From positions 1-29,842 of the IMG/VR virus record IMGVR_UViG_3300006076_000016: 29,842 nt of DNA; one strand, given 5' to 3'. Each line of letters opens with the position of its first letter. Within the stretch, counting starts at the first letter, position 1. Of the stretch, positions 91-23,401 are shown one piece after another. The position numbers and the translations under genes are program-made. The notes beneath the pieces were generated by a model. That model searched no databases. It was not told the origin of the DNA and saw nothing but the letters and a program-made list of their open reading frames with translations. This DNA comes from a virus.

Positions 91-112
91 AATCAACCTC
101 ATGTGTAGTGAG

Positions 113-149
113 AAGCCCTGATCGCCGTAGGAAGTTGTCAGGGCTTTTT
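113..149 (+). terminator. Hairpin with T-run; also the 5' leader hairpin of the leftward gene
   Basis: AAGCCCTGA (113-121) pairs with TCAGGGCTT (138-146) around a 16-base loop, and five T follow on the plus strand. Read on the minus strand it sits between the promoter at 168-196 and the leftward start codon at 90, so it is part of that gene's untranslated leader. Confidence 0.55.
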
Positions 150-167
150 GCTGTCTTGTTGAAATTT

Positions 168-19718: not shown

Positions 19719-19745
19719 ACACTAATTGAGTGTGTATAATTACAC
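19719..19745 (+). promoter_or_regulatory. hicAB promoter with two inverted-repeat operators
   Basis: TATAAT at 19735-19740 is a consensus -10; the -35 region is poor. Two inverted repeats overlap it: ACACT-N5-AGTGT (19719-19733) and GTGTA-TAAT-TACAC (19732-19745), the second centred on the -10. They are likely sites for the HicB ribbon-helix-helix domain. The ATG of hicA is two bases after the second repeat, so the leader is very short. Confidence 0.65.
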
Positions 19746-19746
19746 A

Positions 19747-19935
19747 ATGAATAGCAAAGACATTATCAAGCGCTTGGAACAGGAAGGCTGGGTCAAGGTG
19801 GGTGGTAAAGGTGATCATGAAAAGTTCAAACACCCTGAGAAATCAGGTCATGTCGTGGTGCCGCATCCTCGTAAAGATATGCCTATTGGAACGTTGCGTA
19901 ATATATACAAACAAGCTGGCTGGGAATGGAGGTAA
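19747..19935 (+). CDS. hicA: HicA toxin (mRNA interferase)
   Basis: A 62-residue HicA toxin. HicA folds like a double-stranded RNA-binding domain and cleaves mRNA and tmRNA when free of its antitoxin. The signature is complete: SKDIIKRLEQEGWVKVGGKG, DHEKFKHP with the catalytic histidine H24, HVVVPHPRKDMPIGTLRNI. ATG 19747 gives the standard length. The gene has its own promoter and is followed by hicB two bases later. It should act in superinfection exclusion, prophage maintenance or both; which cannot be read from sequence. Confidence 0.95.
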   Translation: MNSKDIIKRLEQEGWVKVGGKGDHEKFKHPEKSGHVVVPHPRKDMPIGTLRNIYKQAGWEWR

Positions 19936-19937
19936 AT

Positions 19938-20321
19938 ATGTTGTATCCAGTATATGTTCATAAAGACCAAGATTCTGCTTATGGATTAACTTTTCCTGAT
20001 TTTGAGGGGTGCTTTAGCGCCGCTGATGATATGCAGGATGTTGCACGCATGGCTCAAGAAGCTGTGGAGGTGTATTTTGATGGTGAGGATTTAGAATTAC
20101 CCGAACCATCAAGTCCTGAGCAGTGGGCTAATGATGATCGTTTTGTAAATGGTTACTGGTTGTTGGTTGATATCGATACTTCAAAGATTAATAGTAAGTC
20201 CGTACGTATCAATATTAGTATGCCTGAAGCATTGGTTAAGCGCATTGATGCAGTGGCAAAGAAACAACATTTGAGCCGATCTGCATTTTTGGCTAAGAGT
20301 GCGGAAATGGCGCTGCATTAA
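19938..20321 (+). CDS. hicB: HicB antitoxin with ribbon-helix-helix domain
   Basis: A 127-residue antitoxin. The N-terminal HicB domain (YPVYVHKDQDSAYGLTFPDF, EGCFSAADDMQDVARMAQEA) binds and blocks HicA. The C-terminal ribbon-helix-helix (SVRINISMPEALVKRIDAVA, then RSAFLAKSAEMAL) binds DNA and represses the operon, probably at the inverted repeats at 19719-19745. ATG 19938 follows GGAGG at the best distance; ATG 19926 inside hicA is the alternative. A two-way terminator lies just after the stop. Confidence 0.93.
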   Translation: MLYPVYVHKDQDSAYGLTFPDFEGCFSAADDMQDVARMAQEAVEVYFDGEDLELPEPSSPEQWANDDRFVNGYWLLVDIDTSKINSKSVRINISMPEALVKRIDAVAKKQHLSRSAFLAKSAEMALH

Positions 20322-20342: not shown

Positions 20343-20367
20343 AAAAGCCCCATAAGGGGCTTTTTTT
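20343..20367. terminator. Bidirectional terminator between hicB and the antirepressor
   Basis: AAAAGCCCC (20343-20351) pairs perfectly with GGGGCTTTT (20356-20364) around ATAA, with T on the right and A on the left. It serves rightward hicAB and the leftward gene ending at 20370. Confidence 0.88.
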
Positions 20368-20369
20368 AT

Positions 20370-21209
20370 TTAAGAACGGATGTATTGTCTACGCTCGCTA
20401 GGTGGTAAGAGCCATTCATAATCCTTTACTGCTTCCCGTAAAGAGTTACGTTTACTTTTATCTATATAACGCCAAGCAAGTGACCCACCGTCCGCAAAGT
20501 GACTATGAACTGAGCTTGCCATAATTGGACTCATCATGCGAATAGCATCACCAAATGTTCGCCACCATTCCGTTACCCAGATCATGTGTGATGCGAGTGC
20601 ATGAATGTTTTGCAGATCGGCGCTGGTGAGTACTTGTTTATCAGCGTTGCTATACAAAGCAATCAAATGATGAACATACTCAACAGCCACGGGAATCTGA
20701 TCATAAGGGATTTCATCAATATGGTTTGCATTGAATCGCTGTTTAATTATTTTCCATGCTTCGCTCACATTTAAATGCTTTGTTTTGGTTACAAGCAAGG
20801 CGTGCGCTTCATGGAGCGCGGTGCGTTCAGACTTATGAGTTTTAGCTAGAATCTCCTTACGGACAAAATAGCAATCCTCAAGTTGTTCGAATACTTCCCA
20901 CGCTTGATCAGTGTCGAGCATCTTAGCGTGACGGGCTGCGCCTCGTTCCGTCCAGAGGGTTAAATTGCGCGAATTTCTACTGACTGTCTTTGAGTCAGTC
21001 AGTTGCTTAAACTCTTTTAACTCAGTACCCTCAAGTTTAAAGAAGTGTTTACCTTGAACAAAGCGATCCGTATTGCGGATATAGTTTTGTTGAATATTGT
21101 TTACATCTGTTCCATAAAAGTCAGCCAACATTGCTGTTGTGATTACTGGAACGGATTTGAAATTAATGATGGATACTTGCGTATCGTTGATTTGTGCTAA
21201 ACTAGCCAT
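20370..21209 (-). CDS. ORF6N-domain phage antirepressor
   Basis: A 279-residue minus-strand protein, the only reversed gene in the late region. Residues about 10-105 are an ORF6N domain (VPVITTAMLADFYGTDVNNI, FVQGKHFFKLEG, LTLWTERGAARHAKMLDTDQ), a DNA-binding unit found in phage antirepressors and KilA-N relatives. The C-terminal region (VHHLIALYSNADKQVLTSAD, MIWVTEWWRTFGDAIRMMS) is of the type that follows ORF6N in P22-like antirepressors. ATG at 21209 has AAGGAA eight bases before it; the longer frame to 21260 runs through a leader hairpin. Promoter and two operators lie at 21285-21339, face to face with the Arc-like gene. It probably counteracts a repressor during induction. Confidence 0.85.
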   Translation of the reverse strand: MASLAQINDTQVSIINFKSVPVITTAMLADFYGTDVNNIQQNYIRNTDRFVQGKHFFKLEGTELKEFKQLTDSKTVSRNSRNLTLWTERGAARHAKMLDTDQAWEVFEQLEDCYFVRKEILAKTHKSERTALHEAHALLVTKTKHLNVSEAWKIIKQRFNANHIDEIPYDQIPVAVEYVHHLIALYSNADKQVLTSADLQNIHALASHMIWVTEWWRTFGDAIRMMSPIMASSVHSHFADGGSLAWRYIDKSKRNSLREAVKDYEWLLPPSERRQYIRS

Positions 21210-21237
21210 GTCGATTTTCCTTGATTGAAGATTGATA

Positions 21238-21279
21238 CAAAACCCCTCACAGACTGCCAAGAATGTTCGAGGGGTTTTG
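21238..21279 (-). promoter_or_regulatory. Leader hairpin of the antirepressor mRNA
   Basis: CAAAACCCCTC (21238-21248) pairs perfectly over 11 bp with GAGGGGTTTTG (21269-21279) around a 20-base loop. It lies between the leftward start site (about 21304) and the ATG at 21209. Read leftward it ends in TTTTG, so it may act as an attenuator of the antirepressor. Confidence 0.6.
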
Positions 21280-21284
21280 TTTTT

Positions 21285-21339
21285 GGCATAATTATTATGC
21301 CGTTGACAAAACTATAAAACGGCATAATAATTGTGTCAA
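21285..21339. promoter_or_regulatory. Overlapping divergent promoters with two operators
   Basis: Leftward: TTGACA (21339-21334), 17 bases, TATAGT (21316-21311). Rightward: TTGACA (21303-21308), 17 bases, AATAAT (21326-21331). The two promoters overlap. GGCATAATTATTATGCC (21285-21301) is a perfect 17-bp palindrome, and GGCATAATAATTGTGTC (21321-21337) is a half-perfect copy 36 bases on. The Arc-like protein encoded at 21361 is the likely ligand. Confidence 0.75.
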
Positions 21340-21360
21340 TAGTTTTTTCTGAGATTAAAA

Positions 21361-21819
21361 ATGAAACGAGCGATTACTCAAGACGATTGGAAGCGTAGTC
21401 AGATTCGAATGCCTCAAGACAAGTATGACGAAATAATGGGGTATGCAAAGAACAATAACTTATCCTTTAACTCAGCCGTCTTGGAGCTACTAGATAAAGC
21501 TCTTAATTCGGAATCTCAAAAAAGAGGGGGATTAAATTTAATTGAAGAAAAAGATGATCGCTTATATAGAAAAGAAATTTACAATCAAATAAAAGAATTG
21601 GACTTTATAAAAGAGTTGGAGAAGGAGTATGAAGAAAAGCTCGATGTTAGAAAAATGAGAGTTGAGTATTTAGATGTTTTTGGGCAGTGCCATGTTTATT
21701 TGGATTTTGAAGATCATTTTGCAATGCGAAATGCTAGTGGAGAGTGGAGACATGCAAATGCTTTCGAGTGTTGTGATATGACAAATGGAATATTAGACGG
21801 AATGCAAACACTAGATTGA
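21361..21819 (+). CDS. Arc-like ribbon-helix-helix repressor
   Basis: A 152-residue protein with an Arc/Mnt-type N-terminus (SQIRMPQDKYDEIMGYAKNN, NLSFNSAVLELLDKAL), a strand followed by two helices. The rest is a charged coiled segment (EELEKEYEEKL-like, residues about 70-95) and a small domain with two neighbouring cysteines (AFECCDMTNG). In P22, Arc represses the antirepressor gene ant; the same pairing is suggested here by the face-to-face antirepressor and the GGCATAAT operators. The rightward promoter starts about 20 bases before the ATG, and the ribosome site (GAG) is weak. A terminator follows. Confidence 0.8.
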   Translation: MKRAITQDDWKRSQIRMPQDKYDEIMGYAKNNNLSFNSAVLELLDKALNSESQKRGGLNLIEEKDDRLYRKEIYNQIKELDFIKELEKEYEEKLDVRKMRVEYLDVFGQCHVYLDFEDHFAMRNASGEWRHANAFECCDMTNGILDGMQTLD

Positions 21820-21832
21820 TATTCATAAAAAC

Positions 21833-21857
21833 AAACACCTCATTCGAGGTGTTTTTT
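21833..21857 (+). terminator. Intrinsic terminator after the Arc-like gene
   Basis: AAACACCTC (21833-21841) pairs perfectly with GAGGTGTTT (21846-21854) around ATTC, with T to 21857. Confidence 0.85.
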
Positions 21858-22868: not shown

Positions 22869-23401
22869 ATGAACATGATGACAACTATTAACTTTCGGTC
22901 ATTTGTATCAAGCGAAAGTGGCGAACCAAGAACAACCAGTTATGCTATTGCACAAGCATTCAAAAAGCGGCCTCAGATGTATTGAGGGCTATTAAAAATA
23001 TGAAATGCTCAATGAAATTCCGTGAGCGCAATTTTGCGTTTACCTTAGAAAACAAACAGATAGGTAATACGAAAAGAAATACAGGCTTTTATCAAATGAC
23101 AGAACGTGGCTTCATGTTTCTTGTCATGGGTTTTAGTGGTGAAAAAGCCGATGCTATCAAAGAATCATTTATTGATGCATTTGAGTGGATGTCAAACCAA
23201 ATAACTCAAACCTTCCAATCTAAATTGGCTAGATATAATCATATTGTCGGTTATCGCGAAAATCGCAAACAGCAAGTTAGTTGCTCAGCTAGAGACATGA
23301 ACGCGTGGAAACATGAAAAGCATCCACTTGATCATGAAATAGCGCAATTAGAAAGAGAATTACAACCATCGTTACCATTTGCTAGTGAGGTCTTGTCATG
23401 A
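22869..23401 (+). pseudogene. rha: rha-family regulator with a one-base frameshift
   Basis: The gene starts at ATG 22869 (MNMMTTINFRSFVSSESGEP) but stops after AFKKRPQMY at 22984. The neighbouring frame continues the family pattern at once: VLRAIKNMKCSMKFRERNFA, then TGFYQMTERGFMFLVMGFSG and KADAIKESFIDAFEWM, ending at 23401. One extra G after 22976 (CAG-GAT-GTA) restores 177 codons with QDVLRAI at the joint, the normal Rha sequence. Rha proteins are phage regulators whose expression affects lytic growth. The loss may be real or a base-calling error. The leader upstream is structured. The end overlaps the next gene as ATGA. Confidence 0.8.

Follow-up and report, generated by a model that had tools for sequence, protein, structure and literature searches.

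In the immI region of phage P22, Mnt and Arc repress transcription, the antisense RNA sar pairs with the ant mRNA, and the antirepressor Ant complexes the C2 repressor (PMC11016777). The P22 ant region is a variable moron of the late operon; in the phages CUS-3 and HS-1, an ant gene without arc has been noted, and its control was left unexplained (PMC2629481). In phages P1 and P7, the 77-nt antisense RNA c4 acts in trans on ant mRNA, and the 2025 review describing it lists sar for P22 only (PMC12197685). In the freely accessible literature searched, no report of sar outside the P22-like phages was found. The P22 record was used as a positive control. Its ant and mnt promoters lie face to face with operators, and its sar, which is 70 nt long, has the 5′ end at the ant ATG, the promoter within the first 35 nt of ant, and the terminator before ant.

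The locus described here is, judged from its sequence, very likely an immI-like antirepressor cassette that would be governed by two control layers, a DNA-binding repressor and an antisense RNA.

The Locus and Its Elements

The window, i.e., the whole stretch of 29,842 nt that was analysed, is an IMG/VR virus record; its nearest relatives among phage records are Acinetobacter phages, several of them of the genus Vieuvirus. The cassette sits within tail genes, with ant on the minus strand and the tail genes on the plus strand, and ant is thus not codirectional with the late operon. An earlier note on this DNA had compared the locus to the P22 immI logic placed inside a tail operon, a view with which both the anatomy of the P22 record and the constant place of the operators in relatives agree. 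A HicA-HicB toxin-antitoxin pair (19726–20321, plus strand) directly adjoins the cassette; other phages carry different cargo at the same site of the tail operon.

The following elements, together with their fixed geometry, their conservation, and their co-variation, are supported by the sequence and by comparison with relatives:

20343–20364: terminator hairpin following ant on the minus strand, also with TTTATTT on the plus strand after hicB
20370–21209, minus strand: ant, ORF6N-type antirepressor of 279 aa, ORF6N domain at aa 13–97
21195–21203, plus strand: Psar, extended −10 TGC-TAAACT within ant codons 2–5, hexamer at 21198–21203, weak −35
21210–21284, plus strand: predicted antisense RNA of sar type, about 75 nt long, whose sequence is the complement of the ant leader and of the ribosome-binding site
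21210–21236, plus strand: 5′ hairpin of the predicted RNA, with the anti-Shine-Dalgarno TCCTT (21218–21222) in the top of the 5′ arm and the loop
21237–21284, plus strand: terminator hairpin of the predicted RNA with U-tract, identical with the attenuator-like hairpin of the earlier note
21285–21301: putative operator 1, formed by the perfect palindrome GGCATAATTATTATGCC, directly behind the ant start site and ahead of the repressor −35
21303–21331, plus strand: repressor promoter, TTGACA-17-AATAAT
21311–21339, minus strand: ant promoter, TTGACA-17-TATAGT, start site at about 21304
21321–21337: putative operator 2, degenerate copy GGCATAATAATTGTGTC, within the ant promoter's spacer and covering the repressor −10
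21361–21819, plus strand: predicted ribbon-helix-helix repressor of 152 aa in the position of Mnt, with a C-terminal extension of unknown fold
21833–21854: bidirectional terminator after the repressor gene

The Antirepressor Gene

The leftward gene had been taken for an ORF6N antirepressor, and its product indeed matches PF10543 (ORF6N) with 74.6 bits at a cut-off of 27.8. The start of ant was taken as the ATG at 21209, where relatives begin; the ORF list gives a TTG start at 21260, since it takes the first possible start. A PDB search with the Ant alignment returned no match. Candidate targets of Ant are the S24 protein of this phage (789–1520) and, as the earlier note had it, the repressor of another prophage.

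It is possible, if unlikely, that the RNA and the operators are real and that the ORF6N protein regulates something else, or that it belongs to a selfish cassette unlinked to the phage repressor. Such a function would agree with the wide use of the ORF6N domain, with the great differences among the C-terminal ends of the Ant proteins of relatives, and with the occurrence of the cassette in either orientation among them, but the ant product is, in its C-terminal half, a homologue of P22 Ant (E 2e-15, with 36% identity over 108 aa), its PHROG matches are anti-repressor families (phrog_2127, 6e-65), and the control anatomy is the same as that of P22 ant. The N-terminal domains of the two proteins differ, being ORF6N in the window and P22_AR_N in P22. 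An antirepressor is thus the preferred assignment of the ant product.

In the alignment of ORF6N antirepressors (A1, from about residue 190 to the end), C-terminal ends of several unrelated types follow a near-invariant core. This is as expected if different target repressors were chosen by these variable ends.

The Predicted Antisense RNA

The hairpin in the ant leader, which the earlier note had called attenuator-like, is present, with 12-bp arms at 21237–21248 and 21269–21280. The attenuator reading itself did not hold: the U-tract lies on the plus strand, and an antisense extended −10 is found at a fixed place. Because of these two features, the hairpin would probably be the terminator of a sar-type antisense RNA rather than an attenuator. 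The predicted start of this RNA at 21210 adjoins the ant ATG at 21209. The −35 of Psar is poor; the combined −10/ATG pattern has a single perfect match in the window, and the −10 stands in exact register in relatives and in P22. The predicted RNA folds with −29.5 kcal/mol and z −5.9, as compared with z −5.3 for P22 sar.

Two covariance models, neither of which includes promoter or coding sequence and the E-values of which are rough, were searched against the window. R1, built without the window, has its best match here at 21210–21284 on the plus strand (40.6 bits, E 9e-6, a rough value), and the model from P22-type sar alone gives the same stretch as its top match, in exact register, albeit weakly (13.7 bits, E 0.14, likewise rough). 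Applied to 149 Acinetobacter genomes, R1 yielded 30 matches in 26 genomes, a few of which are training loci. Each of the 30 has its beginning right at an opposite-strand start codon, and the −10 is present in 29; behind two of the 30, the reading frame is broken. The proteins encoded behind the matches have N-terminal domains of three unrelated kinds, ORF6N, Bro-N, and P22_AR_N, yet they begin with MNSL, MSNI, or MASL, residues whose codons contain the sar promoter. R1 had no match in a genome whose relative of ant lacks sar. Two of the Acinetobacter genomes, L187 and L196, retain sar and its promoter before a frame-broken antirepressor gene.

Rfam sar (RF00262, gathering score 43 bits) finds nothing in the window up to an E-value of 5, and filing of the RNA under this family was therefore not adopted. 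Elsewhere, the family scored 97.8 bits in P22 and 48 bits in a Xenorhabdus locus (L146).

For comparison, 111 non-redundant ORF6N-type loci from viral and genome collections were used, which are related by descent. An antisense TGn-TAnnnT at exactly −12 occurs together with a strong antisense terminator in 29 of them; the −10 without a strong terminator was found in six, the terminator alone in none, and neither element in 76 (Fisher value of the association 4e-21, ignoring shared descent). The six loci are P22 and enterobacterial loci with sar-like hairpins and U-tracts that are weaker by the criterion applied here, and several of them match Rfam sar. Codon 4 of ant is ATA (14 loci), TTA (14), or CTA (1) in all 29 terminator-positive loci. 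Where it codes for Ile, ATA is used in 14 of 14 cases; elsewhere in the same genes, ATA makes up 15% of the Ile codons.

The antisense RNA predicted in relatives shows compensatory pair changes. In an alignment made without structure, 91.9% of the cells of the two hairpins are paired, and two-sided changes amount to 45, against 13.1 ± 4.3 in shuffles, with none of 500 shuffles reaching this number; sliding of the pairing partners destroys the covariation signal. The 5′ hairpin folds on average better than its shuffles (mean z −2.6, n = 30). Before the KilA-N and AntA antirepressors of the Moraxella phages Mcat20 and Mcat28, the same build of the leader was recognized by eye and folding.

An explanation without any antisense RNA, with the leader hairpin acting as transcription attenuator or mRNA-stabilizing stem of the ant leader, appears quite improbable. 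While the hairpin is stable on the ant strand also (z −4.6), and four U follow the ant-strand side of its core in the window, the antisense side is the one richer in T in 27 of 29 relatives (6.7 versus 4.1 T of 9), and none of the 29 has the hairpin without the antisense −10. It would also leave aside that antirepressors with unrelated N-terminal domains share the very start that encodes this −10, and that P22 has a known RNA at the same place. Because relatives have the U-tract on the opposite strand, the attenuator was rejected as a candidate, and the terminator of a sar-type RNA remains the preferred reading of the hairpin.

Signatures of similar build occur at other sites. On the minus strand of the window, at 2064–2129, a second one lies opposite the start of an ORF on the plus strand (2130–2549), with TGA-TATATT inside the first codons of this early gene (phrog_8058, function unknown), followed by a hairpin with U-tract. 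The position of −10 and hairpin is kept in nearly all of eight related loci, even though the sequences of the terminator hairpins differ. At 92–155 (plus strand), a hairpin with U-tract faces the leader of a truncated ORF on the minus strand, the start of which is at 89 (MEQNTIQSNSAFQFGKVVLGTW...); R1 scores it with 29 bits, and a good antisense −10 was not seen. In other loci (L091:2004-2078, L005:2504-2578, L179, L178, L058, L081, L093, L097, L099, L174, and L180:3973-4044), an antisense RNA of the same build opposes a peptide of 39–52 aa with one likely membrane span, often adjoining ant. Peptide and opposed RNA resemble the two parts of a type I toxin-antitoxin system in Acinetobacter and Moraxella phages; the pair is absent from the window.

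Promoters, Putative Operators, and the Divergent Repressor

Two near-consensus promoters had been described as overlapping face to face, together with a perfect 17-bp palindrome and a degenerate copy of it, and all four elements were recovered at their places. On both strands of the whole 29.8-kb window, 11 or more of the 12 consensus positions are matched by these two promoters only, with 0.85 such sites expected. Further matches to the palindrome with up to three mismatches were not found elsewhere in the window. Perfect palindromes with 8-bp arms number three in the window, with 0.58 expected. In shuffles of the intergenic region, a perfect palindrome arose in 14 of 3000, and none of the 3000 gave a palindrome accompanied by a second copy. 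Significance by base composition alone, being weak window-wide, was not used as an argument; weight was placed on the second copy and on conservation.

The earlier note had named an Arc-like protein as the repressor. Arc-like PHROG families do match the 152-aa product (to 1.6e-6), and its modelled N-terminal domain is a ribbon-helix-helix, but the PF03869 (Arc) score of 17.3 bits is below the cut-off of 20.4 and the position is that of Mnt; by position and score, filing as Arc was ruled out. Among PDB sequences, Mnt matches the 152-aa product best (E 0.11). The single-sequence structure model was useless (pLDDT 41.5); with relatives aligned, only the N-terminal domain is reliable (pLDDT 80–97 over aa 10–50). 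It superimposes on Arc (1baz) with 1.0 Å over 34 residues at a Foldseek probability of 0.90, the E-value not being significant at such length. Relatives of the C-terminal hundred residues were not found, and a search for close relatives with the 152-aa protein returned just one contig, carrying an identical copy.

Three types of control gene are found upstream of the sar-ant core. The first comprises Mnt- and Arc-like genes in the order of P22 (L004, L010, L080, L097, L100, and the enterobacterial loci), the second, present in the window and in about 15 other loci, a single divergent ribbon-helix-helix gene, and the third a divergent helix-turn-helix-like gene, so named by eye (L009, L093, and L101). 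The divergent repressors of L091, L098, L179, and others have differing DNA-binding N-termini on near-identical C-terminal tails (IPTE.LMMELASRMKGYT...KKAP), from which it follows that domain swapping accompanies operator swapping.

Where relatives have ribbon-helix-helix genes, a first putative operator directly follows the ant start, with its centre at +6 to +12 where promoters were callable, and a second one lies upstream, usually within the spacer of the ant promoter; in this survey, the ant promoter was mis-called in L094, L098, and L174. The position of both operators is constant, whereas their sequences vary with the residues of the DNA-reading strand of the repressor. The strand KRSQ goes with GGCATAA operators (the window and Moraxella phages) and, in relatives, KRTQ with GACAC/TTACTA, YNLR with GTCCAGTGGAC, and YKMR with TCCCC-GGGGA operators. 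This covariation is the best evidence for regarding the palindromes as putative operators of the neighbouring protein. Repressor and operator are exchanged jointly among relatives, with sar-ant retained.

Binding of the palindromes by another protein in place of the Arc-like one, such as the neighbouring HicB (19926–20321), which also has a ribbon-helix-helix domain, is most improbable, as both sites, the only two in the window, are located at the Arc-like gene's own promoter and the operator sequences of relatives track the DNA-reading strand of the divergent gene.

A Rha-type regulator gene further along the window (22869–23401, plus strand) is split across two frames near 22980, with the second half matching Phage_pRha from profile position 18; it represents either a pseudogene or a sequencing error or frameshift.

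Proposed Mechanism and Significance

From this anatomy, we infer transcription of the RNA, binding of the repressor, the translational block, and the target of Ant. The repressor, made from the facing promoter, would bind the two palindromic operators over both promoters, thereby shutting off ant and limiting its own synthesis. The antisense RNA, whose promoter is concealed in the initial ant codons, would start at the ant start codon, cross the ribosome-binding site backward, and end at the leader hairpin. It would pair with ant mRNA that escapes repression, and translation would be blocked. If both layers failed, for instance upon infection of a repressor-free cell, Ant would be made and would disarm the chief repressor of lysogeny, in the simplest case the S24 protein.

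On balance, we would lean towards regarding sar with its promoter as a control cap that does not depend on which antirepressor protein follows and that combines freely with different repressor-operator pairs. Its hosts are antirepressors with ORF6N, Bro-N, and P22_AR_N domains and, by eye, AntA and KilA-N proteins of Moraxella phages; the convergence of their first codons on MNSL, MSNI, or MASL would stem from the need to encode the sar promoter. The build would be reused on the ORF at 2130–2549, and regulation by cis-antisense RNAs whose promoters lie in the first codons of the opposed gene may thus be a general habit of Acinetobacter phages.

Predicted RNAs of sar anatomy that Rfam misses occur in 26 of the 149 Acinetobacter species genomes as well as in Moraxella phages and enterobacterial prophages. 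They come with built-in comparisons, namely differing antirepressors behind the same RNA, differing repressor-operator pairs with the same antirepressor, and lineages devoid of the RNA, so that it becomes testable by comparison what sar adds to a tight DNA repressor. In addition, natural operator-repressor pairs are available for the study of ribbon-helix-helix recognition.

Comparison with Known Systems

With P22 immI, the cassette shares the face-to-face promoters with operators, the divergent ribbon-helix-helix repressor, and the location in the late operon. With regard to sequence anatomy, the predicted RNA resembles P22 sar in having its promoter in the first ant codons, its 5′ end at the ATG, and its terminator in the leader; the −10 is TGC-TATACT in P22 and TGC-TAAACT in the window, at the same distance. 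The differences are as follows. The window lacks arc: its place in P22, between promoter and ant, is empty here, with no such ORF in 21209–21304. The 152-aa repressor occupies the position of Mnt, but is devoid of the Mnt C-terminal domain and has a C-terminal part of its own instead. The sar sequence is below Rfam detection. Finally, ant points along the late operon in P22 and against it in the window. The role that sar has in P22 against late read-through can, therefore, not be the reason for its presence here; late read-through would itself be antisense to ant, and the RNA would have to act mainly on mRNA from the ant promoter. Since arc is missing, the orientation is reversed, and Rfam sar is without match, the locus is a variant of immI and not a plain member.

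Acinetobacter phages with mnt-arc-sar-ant units, for example vB_AbaS_qsb1 (L004, L010, L080, L097, L100), have the same ORF6N Ant and the same sar anatomy; these units keep a codirectional arc-like gene before ant, which the window has lost or never had. The c4 RNA of P1 and P7 is alike in that a phage antisense RNA blocks antirepressor synthesis (PMC12197685), whereas the layout in the window is that of a cis-antisense RNA with its promoter inside ant. The ant morons of CUS-3 and HS-1 resemble the present cassette as putative antirepressor genes that lack arc and stand in a late-operon insertion of the same type (PMC2629481), and the arrangement described here suggests how such arc-less antirepressor genes can be held down.
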